Origin: Candidatus Methylomirabilota bacterium
GTDB lineage: Bacteria; Methylomirabilota; Methylomirabilia; Methylomirabilales; CSP1-5
Direction of reading: 5' to 3'
Assembly: GCA_027293415.1 (NCBI GenBank)
Contig: JAPUFX010000134.1
Span: 1-36,032, forward strand
DNA: 36,032 nucleotides
Shown in pieces: positions 586 through 34,104 of the stretch; the stretch's first letter is position 1; the number at the start of each line of letters is the position of its first letter. The translations under genes were made by a program, and so were the position numbers. The notes under the pieces are model-generated. The model made no database searches. It saw nothing but the letters and a program-made list of their open reading frames with translations, and was not told the DNA's origin.

Positions 586-2088
586 CTAGCCGCGTCTCAG
601 TCCTTCGCGACGGGCCGCGAGCGTCCACGCGGATCCAGCGACACCCCGGCCTACGGGGGCTGCGGGCCTCCGTTCCTGCTCGGCAATGTGTGCATGAATC
701 GCGGCGGCCACGATTGCGACATCCTTGTGGCGGGGCTCGCCGCCCTCCTGCTGCGCCAAAAACCTGTCGATGAATGTAGTATCCATGTCTCCCTCCACGA
801 ACCGAGGGTCCGACATGACCTCGAAGAGGAAAGAGACCGTGGTCTTGATCCCGGCAACGAGATAATCCTGCAACGCCTGCCGCATCCGGCTGATGGCCTC
901 GGGCCGATCTTTCCCCCAGGCGACGAGCTTGGATATCAGGGGATCGTAATAGATCGGCACCTCAAATCCCTCGTAGACCCCGCTGTCATTCCGGATGCCT
1001 GGCGCACTCGGGGGTCGATAGAGGGTGATCCTTCCGGGAAAGGGAGTAAAGCGGTTGGTCGGATCCTCAGCATAGATCCGGCACTCGATCGCATGGCCCC
1101 GCGGCTGCACCTCCTCTTGACGCAGGGAGAGGGACTCTCCGGCGGCGATCCGCACCTGGCTCTTGACCAAGTCGATCCCCGTGGTGAGCTCGGTCACCGG
1201 ATGTTCCACCTGCAGGCGGGCGTTGATCTCCAAGAAATAAAAATTCCGGTCGGTATCGACCAAGAACTCCACGGTCCCCGCATTCTGGTAGCGGCAACCT
1301 TTGGCCAAAGCCACCGCGGCCTCTCCCATCCGCCGCCTGAGGTCTGGCGTCATGAAGGGAGAGGGGGACTCCTCCACGACCTTTTGATGCCGGCGCTGCA
1401 GGGAACACTCACGCTCTCCGAGATAGAGCGTGTGACCCGTGGCATCGGCAAGGATCTGCATCTCGATGTGCCGCGGACGGGTCAGATACTTCTCAACGAA
1501 GATGGCATCGTCACCGAAAGAGGATTGCCCCTCCGAGCGGGCTGCCCGAATGGCCGACTGAAGCTCGGCCTCTTCCCCGACAATCCGCATCCCCTTTCCC
1601 CCGCCGCCGGCTGCGGCCTTGATGAGGAGCGGAAAGCCGATCTCCTGTGCCCGCGGGAGGATCTCTTCATCGCGCAGATTTTGGTCGGTCCCAGGCACGG
1701 TCGGCACCCCGACTTGCTTGGCCAGGCGGCGCGAGGCGGTCTTGGATCCACACAGTCTCAAGGTTTCGGAGGAGGGGCCGATGAAGACGAACCCTGCCTG
1801 TTCGCAGGCCTCGGCAAAGGTGGGATTTTCCGCGAGAAAGCCATAGCCGGGGTGGATGGCCTCAGCCTGACTCTGCCGGGCAATCTCAAGGATCCGATCC
1901 ACCCGGAGGTAACTCTCGGCCGAGGGAGATGCACCCACCCAATAGGCCTCATCTGCCTTTCGCACGTGCAGCGCCGAGCGGTCGGCATCGGAGTAAATCG
2001 CCACCGTCCCGATCCCCATCTCCCGGCAGGCCCGGATGACCCGCAGCGCGATCTCTCCGCGATTGGCAATGAGTATCTTTCGAAACAT
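586..2088 (-). CDS. accC: Biotin carboxylase subunit of acyl-CoA carboxylase (AccC-like, ATP-grasp)
   Basis: It carboxylates the biotin of the carrier protein using ATP and bicarbonate, in the cytoplasm. The 500-residue protein starts MFRKILIANRGEIALRVIRA, the family's hallmark N-terminus. GYGFLAEN is at 81-88, the glycine-rich ATP loop KAAAGGGGKGMR at 157-168, and the bicarbonate/active-site segments ECSLQRRHQKVVEE (about 228-240) and EINARLQVEHPVTE (287-300). Length suits the free-standing subunit (445-500 residues). It lies between a small S23-family gene and the biotin carrier, on the same strand as the carboxyltransferase, so it probably serves a propionyl- or methylmalonyl-type carboxylase rather than fatty acid synthesis. 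The only purine-rich tract before the ATG is the GGGGGAC heptad array, which may stand in for a ribosome binding site. Confidence 0.95.
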   Translation of the reverse strand: MFRKILIANRGEIALRVIRACREMGIGTVAIYSDADRSALHVRKADEAYWVGASPSAESYLRVDRILEIARQSQAEAIHPGYGFLAENPTFAEACEQAGFVFIGPSSETLRLCGSKTASRRLAKQVGVPTVPGTDQNLRDEEILPRAQEIGFPLLIKAAAGGGGKGMRIVGEEAELQSAIRAARSEGQSSFGDDAIFVEKYLTRPRHIEMQILADATGHTLYLGERECSLQRRHQKVVEESPSPFMTPDLRRRMGEAAVALAKGCRYQNAGTVEFLVDTDRNFYFLEINARLQVEHPVTELTTGIDLVKSQVRIAAGESLSLRQEEVQPRGHAIECRIYAEDPTNRFTPFPGRITLYRPPSAPGIRNDSGVYEGFEVPIYYDPLISKLVAWGKDRPEAISRMRQALQDYLVAGIKTTVSFLFEVMSDPRFVEGDMDTTFIDRFLAQQEGGEPRHKDVAIVAAAIHAHIAEQERRPAAPVGRGVAGSAWTLAARREGLRRG

Positions 2089-7555: not shown

Positions 7556-8901
7556 TGAACGATGCAGCCAAATTTGGATCATGCATGCGGCCTGCTCGAT
7601 GGATACTTTCCCTCCCGATACTCCTGGTGATGGTCGCCCTGGCCTCGGCCGCGCCTCGCAAGCCGAAGGCGGTCTTCCACTACGACGACGAGGGACAAAT
7701 CGCCCGCCAGGAGGTCGACACAAACAACGATGGCAAGATCGATGTCTGGACCTTCTATGTCAAAGGCGAGATCGACCGACAGGAGGAGGACCGGGACTTC
7801 AACGGGAAGGTGGAGGTGTGGTCCTTTTATCTTCGGGGGAAACTGGATAAGCAGCGGGTGGATACTAACGGGGACGGCAAACCCGATATCTGGTACTTTC
7901 TCGGGTCCCAAGGACAGGTGAACCGGGCCTGGAAGGATACCGATTTTGATGGCCAAGTGGACTTCTGGGGCTACTACAGTGGCGACAAGCGCGAGCGGGA
8001 GGAACAGGACCTAAACCAGGATGGCACGCCGGACCGTTTCCTCTTTTTCACCAAGGGCAAACTCACGCGGAAGGAAGAGGCGGGGAATCGGGATGGCAAA
8101 ATTACCGTGCGAGAGATCTATGACCCGCAAGGCAATGTCATCCGGAAGGAGGAGTTTCGCGCAGGCAAGAGCACACCCCGCCTGGTGAGCCTCTACCAAG
8201 GAGGCAAACTCACTCGACAAGAGGAGGACAAGAACGGCGATAGTCGCATTGACCTCTGGACTTTCTTCGACGGGAATGGTGAAATCGTCCGGCGTGAGGT
8301 CGACACCAACCGGGATGGCAAGCCAGATGTCTGGGCCCATTACGTTGACGGAAAGCTGGTCAGGCAGGAGGAAGATCCGAAGGGGATCGGCACGCCCACG
8401 CTCATCTATTACTATGAACGGGGGATTCTGATCCGGCGGGAAGAGGACCGTCAAGGACGGGGCAAACCGGACATCATTGCATATTATGAAAAGGGGAAGA
8501 TTCGACGACAGGTGGAGTTTAACCACCCCGGAAACGAGCCGGATGTGATTACAGAGTTCCAAAACGGCAAGCCAATCCGTCAGGAGATCTCTACCAAGAC
8601 CAACGGCATTCGGGATCTCACTCGGTACTTCAAAGGGGAACAGCTACTTCGGGAGGAGGTCGACACGAACGGGGACAGGAGGCCGGATCTTTGGGTCTTC
8701 TATCGAAACGGGGCGAAGATCACCCAGGAGGAAGACCTCAACTTCGATGGTCAACCCGATGTCCGGTATCGCTTCCGGAGGGGCCGGGTGAGCGCAAAGG
8801 AGGTCCTGACCGATCAGGGGTCGGGTGTGTCTCCCCAACCGGCGACCGTAGAGCAAAGCAGTCCGCAGTCAGCTGTCAGCAGTCAGCAGGGACAGCAGTA
8901 A
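7552..8901 (+). CDS. Secreted protein of about 15 tandem 24-residue DxNxDGxxD / MORN-like repeats
   Basis: After a signal peptide (about residues 12-34), nearly the whole 449-residue protein is a tandem array of 15 full repeats plus a partial one. The consensus is YxxGKLxRQEEDTNGDGKPD followed by xWx and an aromatic pair. Each unit joins a MORN-like aromatic-x-x-G-K turn to a DxNxDGxxD loop resembling EF-hand or thrombospondin type-3 calcium loops. Units 3, 9 and 14 keep the acidic loop best; 6, 7, 10 and 12 have lost it. Calcium binding and a solenoid fold are inferences. The start overlaps the TonB-like stop, implying coupled translation; M12 (7585) would give a shorter signal peptide. The Ser/Gln-rich tail (about 430-449) is encoded by a heptad repeat. 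I know no named family for it. Confidence 0.8.
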   Translation: MMNDAAKFGSCMRPARWILSLPILLVMVALASAAPRKPKAVFHYDDEGQIARQEVDTNNDGKIDVWTFYVKGEIDRQEEDRDFNGKVEVWSFYLRGKLDKQRVDTNGDGKPDIWYFLGSQGQVNRAWKDTDFDGQVDFWGYYSGDKREREEQDLNQDGTPDRFLFFTKGKLTRKEEAGNRDGKITVREIYDPQGNVIRKEEFRAGKSTPRLVSLYQGGKLTRQEEDKNGDSRIDLWTFFDGNGEIVRREVDTNRDGKPDVWAHYVDGKLVRQEEDPKGIGTPTLIYYYERGILIRREEDRQGRGKPDIIAYYEKGKIRRQVEFNHPGNEPDVITEFQNGKPIRQEISTKTNGIRDLTRYFKGEQLLREEVDTNGDRRPDLWVFYRNGAKITQEEDLNFDGQPDVRYRFRRGRVSAKEVLTDQGSGVSPQPATVEQSSPQSAVSSQQGQQ

Positions 8902-8944
8902 GCGATCAGCTGTCAGCCGTCGGCCATCAGTGGTCAGCCATGAG
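8861..8944. repeat. Heptanucleotide array (GTCAGCA words) overlapping the end of the repeat-protein gene
   Basis: 7-base words of the type GCAGTCA, GCTGTCA, GCAGTCA run through the last codons and stop of the upstream gene and on into the spacer (GCGATCA, GCTGTCA, GCCGTCG, GCCATCA, GTGGTCA). The remaining 100 bases before the next gene hold GTTCTTCTAAGAAC (a short hairpin) and the GAGGGG ribosome binding site. Confidence 0.65.
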
Positions 8945-13085: not shown

Positions 13086-13481
13086 ATGCAGTTTAGCGAG
13101 CCAGATGAGGAGCAGGCAGGGATCAATCTGACATCCCTGATCGACGTGGTCTTCCTTCTGCTCATCTTCTTCATGATCACATCCACGTTCATTAAGGTCG
13201 AGCGAAAGCTGGATCTAGAGCTGCCCGAGGCCAAGGCGGCTGAAGTGGAGCAGAAGGAGCGGAAACCGATCCAGATCGAAATGGACAGAGGGGGGCGGAT
13301 CACCCTGGACGGTCAATTGGTGACCATGAAAGCGTTGGAGACAAGGCTCAAGGAGTTTCAGGGAAAGCGGAAAAGCGCTGTCGTCCGGGCCGACCGACGT
13401 TTGAAGCATGGGACGGTCACGGCCGTGCTGGGGCTCTGCCGGGATGCCGGGATCCGGGAGATCGCCATCGCGGTCAAATAA
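13086..13481 (+). CDS. exbD: ExbD/TolR-family biopolymer transport protein
   Basis: The protein has 131 residues: a short cytoplasmic N-terminus, one membrane segment (about 13-35) with the channel aspartate in INLTSLIDVVFLLLIFFMIT (D19), then a periplasmic domain ending in VTAVLGLCRDAGIREIAIAVK, as in ExbD/TolR. GGGAGG lies six bases before the ATG. It is the partner of ExbB 5' of the MITE and should form the proton-driven motor for the TonB-like protein. The element between the two genes may alter their stoichiometry. Confidence 0.93.
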   Translation: MQFSEPDEEQAGINLTSLIDVVFLLLIFFMITSTFIKVERKLDLELPEAKAAEVEQKERKPIQIEMDRGGRITLDGQLVTMKALETRLKEFQGKRKSAVVRADRRLKHGTVTAVLGLCRDAGIREIAIAVK

Positions 13482-13482
13482 A

Positions 13483-13577
13483 ACGGATAACCGTTATCCG
13501 ATAACCGACGACCGTAAAGGAACGAAAGGCGCCTTTGGTCATCCGTGGTCGGTCAACGGTCGTCGGTCATCGGACGT
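13483..13577. repeat. Heptanucleotide hairpin (GACGACC words)
   Basis: The left arm has GATAACC, GTTATCC, GATAACC, GACGACC and GTAAAGG; the right arm has TGGTCGG, TCAACGG, TCGTCGG, TCATCGG. ACCGACGACCGT pairs perfectly with ACGGTCGTCGGT. It fills the spacer after exbD. Confidence 0.75.
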
Positions 13578-13646
13578 CACTCGTCGAGTATCGGCGCACG
13601 AAATCCTCTCCGCTGCACGAAACACGAACTGTCTGGCTGAGGGACC

Positions 13647-14303
13647 GTGAGGGCATCAATCGGCACGGCTTTGCAATGCTACATTCGGATCCTCCTCGTC
13701 GGGGTGAGTGGTCTGATTCTGCTTTATGCGGCGAGGATAGCGCCAGCCCAGACCAACCCTACCCTTCCGATCCCGTCACGGCACGTGAGGATCTCCGCCA
13801 CGGTCGTCCAGCAGAGCGACTCCAGAAGCTGGGGTTTCGGGCCCGAAAAAGGCATTGTTCCGGAAAGCGAATGGAAAAGCTCCCGGAGCAGTTCCACCTT
13901 CTTCCTCCTGGTGGCCGATGGGCAGGAGGGAAGGATTGCCATAGGTGAGAGCGTGCCCGATGGCCCGTGGTTTTACCAGTACAGCCTGAACCAGGGTTAC
14001 ATCGCGCGGGGCTCAGTTTTTCGAAGCGTCTCGACGGGCTTCAGGGTCATCCCCACTATTCTCCCCGGTGATCGCATCCGCCTGCAGATCACACCGGAGA
14101 TCAGCTACTTCACCGATCAGGGGCAAGGCCACATCGCCTTTGTCGAGTCCCGTCTCGAGGCGGTGGTTGTGAACGGCCAGCCGGTCACCGTCGCCGCAAA
14201 TCGCCATGAGACCGAGAGCGTCTTGTTCAACATCATGCGCGGATACGAATCGCGGACCGGGCTCTCCACCCTCGTCATGACCCTTACCCCCGAGATCCAG
14301 TGA
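13647..14303 (+). CDS. Small exported protein of unknown function, secretin-like beta segment
   Basis: The protein has 218 residues: signal sequence (about 1-34, cleavage near APAQT), then a beta-rich domain. The phrases STGFRVIPTILPGDRIRLQITPEISYFTD and TGLSTLVMTLTPEIQ resemble the beta-barrel part of type II secretion secretins, but the protein is far too short for a secretin. A single-domain relative acting at the outer membrane is one reading. The GTG start follows GAGG. Its TGA overlaps the next start (GTGA), so it is translationally coupled to the TatT lipoprotein and may assist it. Not recognised as a named family. Confidence 0.7.
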   Translation: MRASIGTALQCYIRILLVGVSGLILLYAARIAPAQTNPTLPIPSRHVRISATVVQQSDSRSWGFGPEKGIVPESEWKSSRSSSTFFLLVADGQEGRIAIGESVPDGPWFYQYSLNQGYIARGSVFRSVSTGFRVIPTILPGDRIRLQITPEISYFTDQGQGHIAFVESRLEAVVVNGQPVTVAANRHETESVLFNIMRGYESRTGLSTLVMTLTPEIQ

Positions 14304-15217
14304 AGGGTTCCTTTTCCCTCCTCCTGATTACCATGGCGGTTGTCGTCTCCGCCTGCAGTCCGATTCTCAAGCAAATGACGATCTCCTCGGCAACAGAGAT
14401 CTTCCAGGACGGCCAGGTAACTTTCTACCGGGAGGGCGATCTCCGACTGGCGGAGCAGGCTCTCGCCTCCAACCTAAAGCTCCTTGAAGTTTTTCTCCAG
14501 ACCTCTCCCGACAATCAGGAATTGCTCCTGCTGGCCTCTCAAGGCTTCGAGGCCTACACCTTTGCGTTCGTCGAGAAAAAGATCGCCACGCACCGCACTG
14601 ATCCTCAGCTTTCTTCTCTCCATCGCGAGCGCGCCCGCCGTCTCTACCTCCGAGGCCGCAATTACGGTCTGCGCATTCTCAAACTTCGGCACGAGCCGTT
14701 TGCCACGGCTCTTCACGCGGACCTGCCCGCCTTTCGGGAGGCGCTGCAAGTCTTTCAAAAGGAAGATGTCCCCGCCCTGTTCTGGACAGCCTACGGATGG
14801 GCGGGATCCATCAACTGGAGCCGCACCCGTCCGGAGATGGTGGCGGACCTTCCCCGTGCCGTGGCGATGATGCGCCGCGCCTTAGAGCTGGATGAGGAGT
14901 ACTTTTATGCCGGGCCCCACCTTTTCTTCGGCGTCTACTATGCCTCGCGTTCCCCAGCATTAGGGGGGGAGCCCTCTCGGGCAAAGTCCCATCTCGACAG
15001 GGCCTTGGATCTGACCGGAGGCAAGTTCCTCCTGGTGCATCTTTTCATCGCCGACCCCTTCGCGGTCCAGACTCAGGATCGTGCCCTCTTCGAGACGCAG
15101 CTCCGCCTGATCCTCGATGCCCCGGACGATCTGTTTCCAGAGCAGGAGCTGATGAATCAGGTCGCCAAGGCCCGAGCCCGGCTCCTCTTGGAGAGGATAG
15201 ATGAATTGTTCCTGTAG
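14300..15217 (+). CDS. TatT-like TRAP transporter T-component lipoprotein
   Basis: The protein has 305 residues. Lipobox VVVSAC puts the lipid cysteine at residue 19. The rest is helical and TPR-like (AEQALASNLKLLEVFLQTSPDNQELLLLASQGFEAY; PRAVAMMRRALELDEEYFYAG), the pattern of TatT, known from the Treponema pallidum TatT/TatP pair. There the lipoprotein trimer holds a central pore and binds a DctP-type solute receptor. The neighbour downstream is exactly such a receptor, overlapping by 17 bases. GTG start overlaps the previous stop. Family call is good; the ligand is unknown. Confidence 0.85.
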   Translation: MKGSFSLLLITMAVVVSACSPILKQMTISSATEIFQDGQVTFYREGDLRLAEQALASNLKLLEVFLQTSPDNQELLLLASQGFEAYTFAFVEKKIATHRTDPQLSSLHRERARRLYLRGRNYGLRILKLRHEPFATALHADLPAFREALQVFQKEDVPALFWTAYGWAGSINWSRTRPEMVADLPRAVAMMRRALELDEEYFYAGPHLFFGVYYASRSPALGGEPSRAKSHLDRALDLTGGKFLLVHLFIADPFAVQTQDRALFETQLRLILDAPDDLFPEQELMNQVAKARARLLLERIDELFL

Positions 15218-16508
15218 AGCGAAAACCGATGACCGCCTAACGACGACCGATGACCGACGACCGATGACCGCAAATCTCAGGAGAGCGGAAACGAACGGCG
15301 GGAGACTTGAGCCAATGGGGCAGCCGGCGAGGGGAGCAGATCCTGAGAGACGTCCGTGCGGGGCGAGCGGCTCGCGGGTGGTGGAAGCCAGGTCCTCGTC
15401 CTCATCGAATGACCTGTCGACCGATGACAGAAGCAAGGGCCTTTTACGCTTTCTCGATCGTCGGTTTACGGTCATAGGTCGTCGAATAGCGGCCCTTCTC
15501 ATCGGACTTCTATTCCTCACCCCCCATGGAGTGCTCGAAAGCGCCGGCCCCTTCCGAATCAATGGTTCGGCTCCACTCACCATAAAATTTGCCACGCTCG
15601 CCCCCGAGGGCTCCACGTGGATGTTGACCCTTCGGGAAATGGATGCAGAGTTACAACAACGGAGTAGCGGGCGTATCCGTTTTATTTTCTATCCGGGAGG
15701 GGTGCTAGGAGATGAGATCGATGTTATCCGCAAGATTCGCATCGGACAGCTCCATGGTGGAGCCTTCTCCGGAGTGGGTCTCGGCTCCGTACTCCCCTCG
15801 GTCCGCGTCTTAGAACTCCCACTGCTTTTTGAGGGGGCAGACGACGCAGACTTTGTCACCGGGCGACTTGAAGAGAATTTTGCGCGAGCCTTCGAGAAGC
15901 GGGGATTTGTCTTCCTGGCCTTCGCCGAAGCCGGCCCCGTCCATATCTTCTCGCAGAACGCAATCCGTCGCCGCCAAGACCTGAAGGGCATCAAGCTTTG
16001 GACCTGGTATGGAGACCCGCTAGCTGAGGCCCTGTTCCGGACCTATCAGGTTGCAACTGTTCCGCTCGCACTCCCCGATGTATTCCCATCCCTCCAAACG
16101 GGTCTGATTGATGCATTCTACGCCCCGCCGCTCGCTGCCATTGCGCTCCAGTGGTTCAACCAAGTCTCCTATATGTCCTCACAATGGCTTACCCGCGCGA
16201 TCGGCGGGATGCTTATCTCAAGATCCCGCTGGCGGACAATCCCAGAAGATCTGCGGATCACCCTGAAGGATGTGGCCAAGAAGTATGCCCGGCAGGTGGT
16301 CGTCAAGACACGACGGGAAAACCAGGAAGCGCTGACCGTCCTGAAGCGAAACGGTATCCAAATAGTGGACCTCGACCCGGCAGAACGGCATCACCTCCTC
16401 AAGGCGAGCCAACGGGTCTGGGAGGACCAGGCGGGCAGGCTCTATCCGCGATCGCTCCTCGATCAGGTTAAATCGCTCTTGCGACAGTACCGGGGCAAAG
16501 GGTCGTGA
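15201..16508 (+). CDS. TRAP-type solute-binding protein (DctP/TatP-like) with repeat-encoded N-terminal extension
   Basis: The binding domain begins near residue 113 (LTIKFATLAPEGSTWMLTLREM) and shows the DctP pattern through RVLELPLLFEGADDADF, GIKLWTWYGDPLAEALFRTYQVATVPLALPDVFPSLQTGLIDAFYAPP and the C-terminal helices. A hydrophobic signal segment lies at about 94-112 (RRIAALLIGLLFLTPHG). Residues 8-93 are unlike any receptor and are encoded by a heptad-repeat element. The ATG at 15201 has GGAGAGG four bases upstream and overlaps tatT, so it is probably the native start with the element inserted in frame; ATG 15264 or 15315 are alternatives. No DctQ/DctM genes follow. The pair with TatT is strong; the ligand is unknown. 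Confidence 0.85.
   Translation: MNCSCRAKTDDRLTTTDDRRPMTANLRRAETNGGRLEPMGQPARGADPERRPCGASGSRVVEARSSSSSNDLSTDDRSKGLLRFLDRRFTVIGRRIAALLIGLLFLTPHGVLESAGPFRINGSAPLTIKFATLAPEGSTWMLTLREMDAELQQRSSGRIRFIFYPGGVLGDEIDVIRKIRIGQLHGGAFSGVGLGSVLPSVRVLELPLLFEGADDADFVTGRLEENFARAFEKRGFVFLAFAEAGPVHIFSQNAIRRRQDLKGIKLWTWYGDPLAEALFRTYQVATVPLALPDVFPSLQTGLIDAFYAPPLAAIALQWFNQVSYMSSQWLTRAIGGMLISRSRWRTIPEDLRITLKDVAKKYARQVVVKTRRENQEALTVLKRNGIQIVDLDPAERHHLLKASQRVWEDQAGRLYPRSLLDQVKSLLRQYRGKGS
15220..15490. repeat. Heptanucleotide element inside the 5' part of the dctP-like gene
   Basis: The left arm 15220-15275 is eight 7-base words (GAAAACC, GATGACC, GCCTAAC, GACGACC, GATGACC, GACGACC, GATGACC, GCAAATC). The right arm 15462-15490 has TCGTCGG, TTTACGG, TCATAGG, TCGTCGA. 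The loop of about 185 bases contains a 25-base stretch shared with 18068-18092. The frame stays open throughout. Confidence 0.7.
15323..15347 (+). repeat. 25-base dispersed repeat next to heptad arrays, copy 1
   Basis: GCCGGCGAGGGGAG followed by CAGATCCTGAG matches 18068-18092 at 23 of 25 positions, same strand. Both copies lie directly beside heptad arrays, so it may be a conserved part of one class of these elements. Confidence 0.5.
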
Positions 16509-24954: not shown

Positions 24955-24961
24955 CGCTCGT

Positions 24962-25047
24962 ACACCGATGACCGTAAACCGATGACCGAGAAGAATAAAA
25001 AGGGACATCTGTTTCTGTTGTCGGTCATCGGACGTCGGTCGTCGAAA
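24962..25047. repeat. Heptanucleotide hairpin between pgk and tpiA
   Basis: ACCGATG/ACCGTAA-type words (24962-24990) face TCGGTCA, TCGGACG, TCGGTCG (25021-25043). CCGATGACCGA pairs perfectly with TCGGTCATCGG. It reaches to within a few bases of the tpiA start codon and of the pgk stop. Confidence 0.8.
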
Positions 25048-26239: not shown

Positions 26240-26245
26240 TGGGCC

Positions 26246-26340
26246 CGTTCATGGTTGAGGGTTCATGGTTCAGAGTTCAGCCCAGCGTCAGTTCAGTCCG
26301 CATCACTTCACCATGAACCATGAACCGTGAACTGTGAACC
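26246..26340. repeat. Heptanucleotide hairpin (GTTCATG words) between gap and pgk
   Basis: GTTCATG, GTTGAGG, GTTCATG, GTTCAGA, GTTCAGC on the left; ACCATGA, ACCATGA, ACCGTGA, ACTGTGA on the right. The same word family, in the same arrangement, occurs at 33701-33795. Confidence 0.8.
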
Positions 26341-26343
26341 AAT

Positions 26344-29842: not shown

Positions 29843-30014
29843 CTATCATCTGTCCGCTGTCAGCAATCAGCAAGAAAATAATTAAGCGGTGCCGCTCATG
29901 TATGTTCGCCGCCCCCACCCCTGCAACTTTCCTACGGCCGATCTTCCAAGCTTGCCAGCATACCAGCCTCTTTGCTCCTTCTTGCTGACTGCTGACGGCT
30001 GATTGCTGACCGCT
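29843..30014. repeat. Heptanucleotide hairpin (GTCAGCA words) between proA and nadD
   Basis: The left arm is CTGTCCG, CTGTCAG, CAATCAG, CAAG (29850-29873). The right arm is CTTGCTG, ACTGCTG, ACGGCTG, ATTGCTG, ACCGCTC (29985-30014). The loop of about 110 bases shows no gene. Confidence 0.75.
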
Positions 30015-30016
30015 CG

Positions 30017-31273
30017 TTAACGGCGGGAGTCCCGGACCTGGCCTTCGCCCAGCACGATGAATTTCGCACAGGTCAATTCTTTGAGCCCCATAGGGCCCCG
30101 CGCGTGAAGTTTCTGTGTGCTGATGCCAATCTCTGCCCCCATGCCGAACTCCCCCCCATCGGCAAAGCGGGTGGAGGCGTTTACAAAGACCGTCCCGGCA
30201 TCCACCTCGCGGAGGAAGCGCATCGCCCGACCATAATCAGCAGTGACGATTCCTTCGGCCAGTCCCGACCCGTACTGACAAATATGCACCACTGCCTCTT
30301 CAAACGATCCCACCACCTTGATGGAGAGGATCAGGTCAAGATATTCGGTCTCCCAATCGATGTCCGTGGCTTTCGTCAGATGGGGCAGGATTGCCCGGGT
30401 TTGGGGGCATCCTCTGAGCTCTACGCCAGCGGATTCGAGGCGCGCCGCCATCTTGGGAAGGGCTTCAACTGCAACCTGCTCGTGCACGAGCAAGGTCTCA
30501 AGGGCATTGCAGACCCCTGGCCGCTCTACCTTGGCGTTAAAGACTATCTCCTCGGCCATCGAGATATCGGCCGCCACGTCCACATAGATATGACAGAGAC
30601 CCTTCTCGTGGGCAATCACCGGGATCGTGGACATCTCCTTCACTGTCCGGACGAGTTCTTCCCCCCCTCTGGGGATGACCAGATCGATGTACCGATCGAG
30701 CTTGAGGAGGGTGTGCACCGCCGCTCGATCAGTAGTCTGCACGATCCCCACCACTCCCTTGGGGAGGCCCACGGTCTCCGCCGAAGCCGTCAGGACAGCC
30801 GCGATCGCTGTGTTGCTCCGGATGGCCTCGGAGCCGCCTCGCAAGAGAATGGCGTTGCCAGTCTTGATGCACAAGCCTGTCACGTCGGCGGTCACATTCG
30901 GCCGGGACTCGTAGATCACAGCAATAACGCCCAGAGGGACCCGCATGCGACCCACCCAGAGGCCATTGGGGCGTCGCTCCAACGCGGTTGCCTCCCCGAC
31001 CGGATCCGGAAGGGCCGCTACCTCTCGCAGACCTTGCGCCATTGCCCGCACGCGCTCGGGGCTGAGCCGCAGCCGATCCAGAAAGGCGGACGGGTGCCCC
31101 GTCCCCTCCGCCGCGGCCAGATCTTGAGCGTTGACTTGGAGAATCTCTTCCTGGCGATCGAGCAGGCCTTCCGCCATCGCATGCAGGGCTCGATTCTTGA
31201 CCTCGGTAGAGGCAAGGGCCATAGCTCGTGCCGCCTCTCGGGCTTGGCCGGCCAACGCCTCCACTTCTTTCAT
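30017..31273 (-). CDS. proA: Gamma-glutamyl phosphate reductase
   Basis: Second step of proline synthesis, NADPH-dependent. 418 residues, usual length. Seen: GVIAVIYESRPNVTADVTGLCIKTGNAILLRGGSEA, DLVIPRGGEELV, catalytic cysteine in VERPGVCNALETLLVH, and FVNASTRFADGGEFGMGAEIGISTQKLHARGPMGL. The start overlaps the proB stop by four bases, and AAGGAG precedes the ATG. Confidence 0.97.
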   Translation of the reverse strand: MKEVEALAGQAREAARAMALASTEVKNRALHAMAEGLLDRQEEILQVNAQDLAAAEGTGHPSAFLDRLRLSPERVRAMAQGLREVAALPDPVGEATALERRPNGLWVGRMRVPLGVIAVIYESRPNVTADVTGLCIKTGNAILLRGGSEAIRSNTAIAAVLTASAETVGLPKGVVGIVQTTDRAAVHTLLKLDRYIDLVIPRGGEELVRTVKEMSTIPVIAHEKGLCHIYVDVAADISMAEEIVFNAKVERPGVCNALETLLVHEQVAVEALPKMAARLESAGVELRGCPQTRAILPHLTKATDIDWETEYLDLILSIKVVGSFEEAVVHICQYGSGLAEGIVTADYGRAMRFLREVDAGTVFVNASTRFADGGEFGMGAEIGISTQKLHARGPMGLKELTCAKFIVLGEGQVRDSRR

Positions 31274-33691: not shown

Positions 33692-33700
33692 CTTTCCCTC

Positions 33701-33795
33701 CGTTCATGGTTCACGGTTCATAGTTCACGGCAAATGCCTCGGAGAGGGCTCATGTGGAACTCTATTTCTGAAACGTGAACCCTGAACTATGAACC
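33701..33795. repeat. Heptanucleotide hairpin (GTTCATG words) between rplU and rpmA
   Basis: GTTCATG, GTTCACG, GTTCATA, GTTCACG on the left; CGTGAAC, CCTGAAC, TATGAAC on the right. GGTTCATAGTTCA (33715-33727) pairs perfectly with TGAACTATGAACC (33782-33794). It ends at the rplU stop codon. Confidence 0.82.
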
Positions 33796-34104
33796 AACCG
33801 CGATTTCCTCGACCCGCAGCCGGGTCAGCCGCTGACGGTGTCCAGTCTTTCGCCGGTACTTCTTTCGCCGCTTGAACTTGAAGACCGTAACCTTTGCGCT
33901 CCGGACCTGCCCCAAGATGGTTGCGCGTACTTTCGCCCCTGGCACCAGGGGAGATCCAATCTGGACTTTCTCTCCCTCGGCGACCAAGAGGATCCGAGAA
34001 AGCTCCACGACCTCGCCCACGTCCCCGGGCACACGCTCCACGGCAACAACACCCCCTGGGGCCATCCGATATTGCTTTCCACCAGTTTCTACCACCGCGT
34101 ACAT
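33787..34104 (-). CDS. rplU: 50S ribosomal protein L21
   Basis: 105 residues from ATG 34104 (MYAVVETGGKQYRM), with GGGAGG upstream. The characteristic FKFKRRKKYRRKTGHRQRLTRLRVEEI is at the C-terminus. The longer open frame to 34158 adds 18 residues that cross the promoter and is rejected. It heads rplU-rpmA-obgE-proB-proA-nadD-rsfS. The last codons overlap the repeat arm downstream. Confidence 0.96.
   Translation of the reverse strand: MYAVVETGGKQYRMAPGGVVAVERVPGDVGEVVELSRILLVAEGEKVQIGSPLVPGAKVRATILGQVRSAKVTVFKFKRRKKYRRKTGHRQRLTRLRVEEIAVGS

Follow-up and report, generated by a model that had tools for sequence, protein, structure and literature searches.

A heptad-repeat hairpin at the tatT–dctP junction as an apparently translated, length-variable front of a solute-binding protein in a Methylomirabilis-like genus

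The STRR sequences of cyanobacteria are heptanucleotide repeats, with a period of 7, that occur many times per genome and near start codons. For the TAACTGA heptamers of the Beggiatoaceae, the relevant passages likewise report many copies per genome near start codons, with some sets located inside reading frames, mostly at the ends of proteins (PMC4679880). The Rickettsia palindromic elements (RPEs) are, according to the sections devoted to them, small inverted repeats that occupy intergenic positions but also lie in frame within conserved proteins, to which they add a tolerated segment (PMC2229807, PMC10969869). A Yersinia element, YPAL/RU-2, is mentioned in one of these sources as forming part of a signal peptide at the locus YPO1552 (PMC2229807), and the coding tandem repeats of Borgs are portrayed, in the portion of the text concerned, as lying in genes with the frame kept and giving rise to disordered, sometimes N-terminal, segments (PMC9879509).

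The window considered here, i.e. the whole stretch of 36,032 nucleotides that was analysed, comes from the genome designated G000, belonging to a group of bacteria associated with methane, and contains, between a tatT gene and a dctP-like gene, an inverted-repeat element built of heptads. This element is probably translated, as judged from the sequence, as a variable N-terminal extension of the dctP-like protein starting from the ATG at 15201, following an ancestral insertion at the tatT–dctP junction. The closest known kind is that of the protein-coding palindromic elements of Rickettsia: the present elements, too, are inverted repeats, and copies of them occur in intergenic positions as well as in frame in conserved genes. 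They differ in that RPEs constitute sequence families of about 105–150 bp, whereas here a period of 7 nt is combined with variable arms and loop and with several unrelated units, so that instead of one conserved family of defined length there are inserts of 91–268 nt with loops that cannot be aligned; the phylum is different, too. With YPAL/RU-2, as far as its brief description goes, the locus has in common that a short repeated element, joined in frame, contributes to the N-terminal part of a protein predicted to be exported, but there the element encodes the hydrophobic cluster, whereas here it encodes a basic stretch, of species-variable length, before a native core. The TAACTGA heptamers and the STRRs resemble it in the period of 7 and the position near starts—for STRRs the likeness rests on this period, the unit sequences aside—but consist for the most part of a single unit repeated directly, in contrast to the two inverted arms and several unit types seen here. 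The Borg repeats, in the features given for them, are perfect, have units divisible by three and belong to archaeal extrachromosomal elements, whereas the present unit measures 7 and only in its entirety does the sequence preserve the frame. Literature searches for heptad repeats in these bacteria, as well as for heptanucleotides with signal peptides, brought nothing on point among the matches listed, which does not imply absence from print.

The gene for the TRAP transporter T-component, tatT, covers positions 14300–15217 of the plus strand (Pfam TAtT, PF16811; E 1.5e-79; 267.5 bits against a cut-off of 26.5) and ends with the stop codon TAG at 15215–15217. Its 3′ end also contains, within tatT codons, a ribosome-binding site, GGAGAGG (15190–15196), and the ATG (15201–15203) that most likely starts the dctP-like gene, since it shares one open frame with dctP in all five species compared. 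The dctP-like gene thus lies directly downstream of tatT, overlapping it by 17 nt, and its frame, 15201–16508 on the plus strand, is open throughout its 435 codons; in these respects—the well-placed site, the overlap and the absence of stops from the intervening sequence—the initial annotation proved right. The product of 435 amino acids is a TatP-type solute-binding protein according to both Pfam (DctP, PF03480, residues 130–409; E 1.9e-43; 149.3 bits, curated cut-off 23.4) and NCBIfam (TRAP_S1, NF037995; E 1.4e-81; 273.8 bits, cut-off 50), and its PDB matches include a solved relative, Tp0957/TatP. The hydrophobic signal core, IAALLIGLLFLTPHGVL, encoded on the plus strand at 15486–15536, is where the top 15-residue hydropathy window of the N-terminal part lies; the signal segment expected near residue 94 is indeed present, with the core beginning at residue 96 (IAALLIGLLFL), i.e. 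after an extension of 95 residues.

The element itself, on the plus strand, consists of a left arm of ACCGATG/ACCGACG units (15220–15275), a loop (15276–15454) and a right arm (15455–15484), the last of them encoding the basic DRRFTVIGRR immediately before the signal core. The left arm exhibits a tandem period of 7/14/21, detected at 15225–15270, which agrees with the tandem-heptanucleotide definition of cyanobacterial STRRs. The inverted repeat joins 15241–15270 with 15455–15484, 30 nt that are 80% complementary and 184 nt apart; both arms had been recognised in the initial annotation, the right one having been placed a few bases off, at 15462–15490. Inverted arms were found in all five species, the best inverted repeat of each insert being matched by 0, 0, 1, 0 and 1 of 100 shuffles, and a peptide resembling that of the right arm, SSxxGxRSxxxxRx, occurs in G004, G001, G006 and G002. 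The loops differ, and that of the window cannot be aligned to those of the sister species. The loop of the window was also considered as a mobile piece, an idea that was rejected, only short matches of 24–53 nt being found elsewhere. One piece of it (15322–15347) recurs over 24–29 nt in G005, G006 and G001, the copies in G005 and G006 sharing a slightly longer context outside heptad elements.

Arms retained in all five species around differing loops would suit a hairpin acting mainly as an RNA device between the two genes, setting message stability or the TatT/DctP stoichiometry, with coding as a by-product of the overlap; such roles have been described, in the passages available from that source, for other small elements (PMC2229807). 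Folding, however, speaks against it: the whole region has an unremarkable energy compared with shuffled sequences (z −0.4 to −2.2 over the five species) and folds little more strongly than shuffles do in G000, G006 and G002 (z −0.9, −0.4 and −0.8, respectively). Such a device as the main role of the element is considered unlikely, and it would in any case not preclude that the element is translated. The closeness of the whole-region energies to those of shuffled sequences led to rejection of the view that strong RNA structure is the principal feature.

Translation of the element as the front of the dctP-like protein finds support in the comparison within the genus, where six genomes in addition to G000 were inspected. 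A dctP-like orthologue adjoining tatT is present in four of them (G004, G001, G006 and G002, with 94, 77, 70 and 69% identity, respectively); none was found in the available sequence of G003 (85% complete) and G005 (68% complete). The alignment over the N-terminus that the initial annotation had called for reveals the same in-frame layout in all four sister orthologues, and what the sequences of the five species directly display is a common arrangement in which GAGAGGAT-N-G-ATG in the end of tatT opens the dctP frame. The tatT stop and the hydrophobic core are separated by a different distance in each of them—268 nt in the window, 91 in G004, 154 in G001, 151 in G006 and 169 in G002—but all five inserts equal 1 modulo 3 and are free of stops in the dctP frame. 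Under a first-order Markov model, the chance of an insert being in frame and stop-free is 0.036 for the window, 0.22 for G004, 0.16 for G001, 0.17 for G006 and 0.09 for G002; the product of four of these, with the window left out as it had been chosen for its in-frame feature, is ~6e-4 if they are independent, and since the five species are related, this value serves only as a guide. It should be added that the inserts of G006, G001 and G004 are stop-free in at least one other frame as well. The predicted extensions comprise 36–95 residues before the core and carry a net charge of +3 to +11, their last 20 residues contributing +3 to +6 in all five species; the one from G002 includes a second hydrophobic stretch.

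The start codon can be approached through the tatT codons with which it overlaps. In the alignment of the five tatT genes, 65 of the 174 invariant degenerate positions keep one codon, and these include GAG and AGG of the ribosome-binding site and GAT, the Asp codon overlapping the ATG, each of them identical in all five species; the Leu codon preceding those of the ribosome-binding site ends in TG in every one of the five genes. AGG makes up 8.2% of the Arg codons in the genes used for training the codon table, and among the 19 invariant Arg positions of tatT no more than five have an unchanging codon, which is CGC at four of them and the AGG of the ribosome-binding site at the remaining one. 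This synonymous conservation is the pattern expected of a used ribosome-binding site inside a coding sequence. As for other possible starts, the extension in the window contains internal ATG codons at 15264 and 15315 and GTG codons at 15378 and 15381, whereas G004 possesses no ATG, GTG or TTG between the tatT-internal ATG and the signal core; near the core, there are two ATGs in G006 and one TTG plus one ATG in G002, a downstream start being possible there.

The behaviour of heptad elements beside other genes served as a control. With a codon-usage gene caller, the frame of the gene remained open through the adjoining element in 6 of 36 pairs in G000 (7 of 37 before the dctP pair was subtracted) and in 2 of 20 pairs in G004, i.e. 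in 8 of 56 altogether; as the control stretches (L069–L104) were picked for holding heptads, these pairs do not sample genes at random. The open pair in the stretch L093 was scored for the gene following a histidine kinase and not for the kinase. Calling genes by the longest frame was dropped as a control, since such frames overlapping real genes made it unreliable. An example of the ordinary arrangement is the heptad hairpin at 24958–25045 of the window, upstream of a gene which we take, from its N-terminus, to be tpiA: a proper start with little ribosome-binding site follows shortly after the element. The dctP-like gene does not conform to this example, given that the G004 orthologue offers no such codon between the tatT-internal ATG and the core.

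These data bear on another explanation, namely that the element is untranslated intergenic DNA, open by chance, and that the start of dctP, a weak or non-standard codon (ATA, ATC, TTG or GTG), lies at the right arm or behind it. Codon usage would be in line with it, the extension being unlike genes and becoming gene-like only from near the signal core, so that a codon model would place the dctP start at 15531; so would the ATG GGT CGG CGA ATG that G006 has at the place where the heptad-free paralogues start, as well as the many heptad elements that are ordinary intergenic sequences located shortly before a start. It is, however, hard to reconcile with G004, where the usual start codons are missing between the tatT-internal ATG and the core, with the frame being open in five of five species at differing lengths as compared with 8 of 56 cases elsewhere, and with the ribosome-binding site and ATG inside tatT being kept at synonymous positions, and is regarded as rather improbable. 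Post-transcriptional removal or skipping of the insert, through an intron, RNA processing or ribosome bypass, as the initial annotation had allowed, is very improbable indeed: the flanks could be drawn together by the long arms that complement each other, but whole-region folding is not out of the ordinary, Rfam returned no match of any kind, intron or other RNA family, at E up to 1 within positions 14900–15800 of the window, and a skipped insert needs no open frame, yet the frame is open in five species. Excision had been supposed to join the start to a normal signal peptide; what separates the tatT stop from the core is 268 nt, not a multiple of three, and removing exactly these nucleotides would therefore not restore the frame. 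Thus, the frame kept in five species, the synonymous conservation and the lack of another start in G004 together make translation of the element most likely and its removal from RNA unneeded, and of the three options originally offered, the odd N-terminal extension, its frame kept in the orthologues, fits best.

Concerning the history of the insertion, relatives lacking the heptads are informative. In G018 and in the heptad-free paralogous pairs of G004 and G001, the start of dctP shares 4 nt with the tatT stop, stands behind a strong ribosome-binding site and is followed by the signal core within about 20 residues; in the genus under study, the end of tatT comes earlier, with the heptads directly behind its stop. 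Relatives of this kind, starting downstream with their own ribosome-binding site, had been named beforehand as counter-evidence, and they indeed start right before the signal, but that place is at the same time the tatT stop. The MGRRMAAVLLVLLLL of G006 aligns, on visual inspection, with the start of the paralogues, (M)KRTIVATLTLFVLLLL, the other species having ATA or ATC there. Since G006 retains an ATG at the place of the old start, the element may, on this comparison, have landed upstream of that start, which then decayed, the tatT-internal ATG being the newer one; alternatively, it may have landed after the old start. The initial description as an insertion in frame after the start is supported as regards the position between a start that looks used and the core, kept in the orthologues. 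A clean empty site for the dctP insert, by which its limits could be defined, is absent at close distance within the genus. G019, in which the reading of tatT continues in another frame, is omitted from this comparison, and G009 and G025 were not used as a simple outgroup. The junctions of the latter two (L043 and L044) display long stretches, devoid of obvious heptads, that lead from the tatT stop to a signal core carrying paired arginines.

For the favoured reading, i.e. the translated extension, we infer the following course of insertion, translation, export and cleavage. A dispersed inverted-repeat element with a period of 7 nt would have entered the tatT–dctP junction in the ancestor of the genus. 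Ribosomes finishing tatT would initiate dctP at 15201, inside the end of tatT, and read the element as codons, giving a basic and variable extension of 36–95 residues before the core, with the right arm providing the basic stretch directly in front of it. Later changes of the element would have been retained only if the frame stayed open. Export would proceed from the native hydrophobic core, and the extension probably leaves with the signal peptide, as its position suggests, which would explain why it is tolerated.

The heptads are not confined to this junction. A strict scan for a 7-nt period over 204,906 bp of G000 (the window and 20 further stretches) gave 24 arrays against one in a single base-shuffled copy; the 24 include the stretch L049, a run of N throughout, and the array in the shuffled copy is most likely the same run, so that the fair count is 23 versus 0. 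A looser list contains several unit types, mostly between genes or at frame ends. The exact pattern GGTCRTCGGTCRTCGGTC was found in all seven genus genomes searched and in one of 53 others, its reversed control in none of the 60, and a second heptad unit type in 14 of the 60. Within the window, period-7 elements with differing units, among them AATTTCG, GTCCCCC, GTCAGCA and GTTCATG, are located at 528–571, 2086–2141, 8855–8930, 26245–26343, 29843–30018 and 33698–33797. Another heptad element (13480–13585) separates a gene, presumably exbD-like, from the next one and has a counterpart in G004 at about the matching place.

Under a strict criterion, demanding gene-like codon usage on both sides of the element and thereby excluding dctP itself, two of 95 elements are located in frames that clearly code, dctP being additional to them. 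The first, recognised by codon usage and domain, consists of GGTCATC heptads in frame within the ATPase domain of a histidine kinase from G004 (HATPase_c, E 4.6e-25; L093, G004:C100, about 1986–2023, minus strand). This insert is absent from the close relatives G002 and G006 and from G008, G012, G010, G026 and G028, and filled and empty sites in related species, as known for RPEs, are thus at hand (G004 filled; G002, G006, G008 and G012 empty); the same HATPase_c loop bears other, shorter inserts in G007, G023 and G016. The second, identified in the same way, is formed by GTTCACG-type heptads encoding a linker of an ABC_transp_aux protein (domain match E 8.7e-37; L051, G000:C10, 14006–14080, minus strand), which is of similar length in G004, G002, G001 and G003 and is replaced by different linkers outside the genus. 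A contig scan gave two loci, one apparently the contig of G004 and the other from a distant relative. Tentatively, the period-7 hairpins may represent a reservoir of protein-coding DNA spread across the Methylomirabilis-like genus, which could insert, grow and shrink, be kept in frame in or beside genes and supply signal-peptide front ends, domain loops and linkers; they would then possibly make up a second independent lineage of protein-coding palindromes, one without a fixed sequence family.

The five species show that a repetitive hairpin can persist, apparently translated, at the head of an exported protein and yet vary freely in length and content. The resulting natural series, from 36 to 95 residues, allows one to ask what length and what degree of variation are possible ahead of a bacterial export signal, and the case takes protein-coding palindromes beyond the lineages for which the papers cited describe them.
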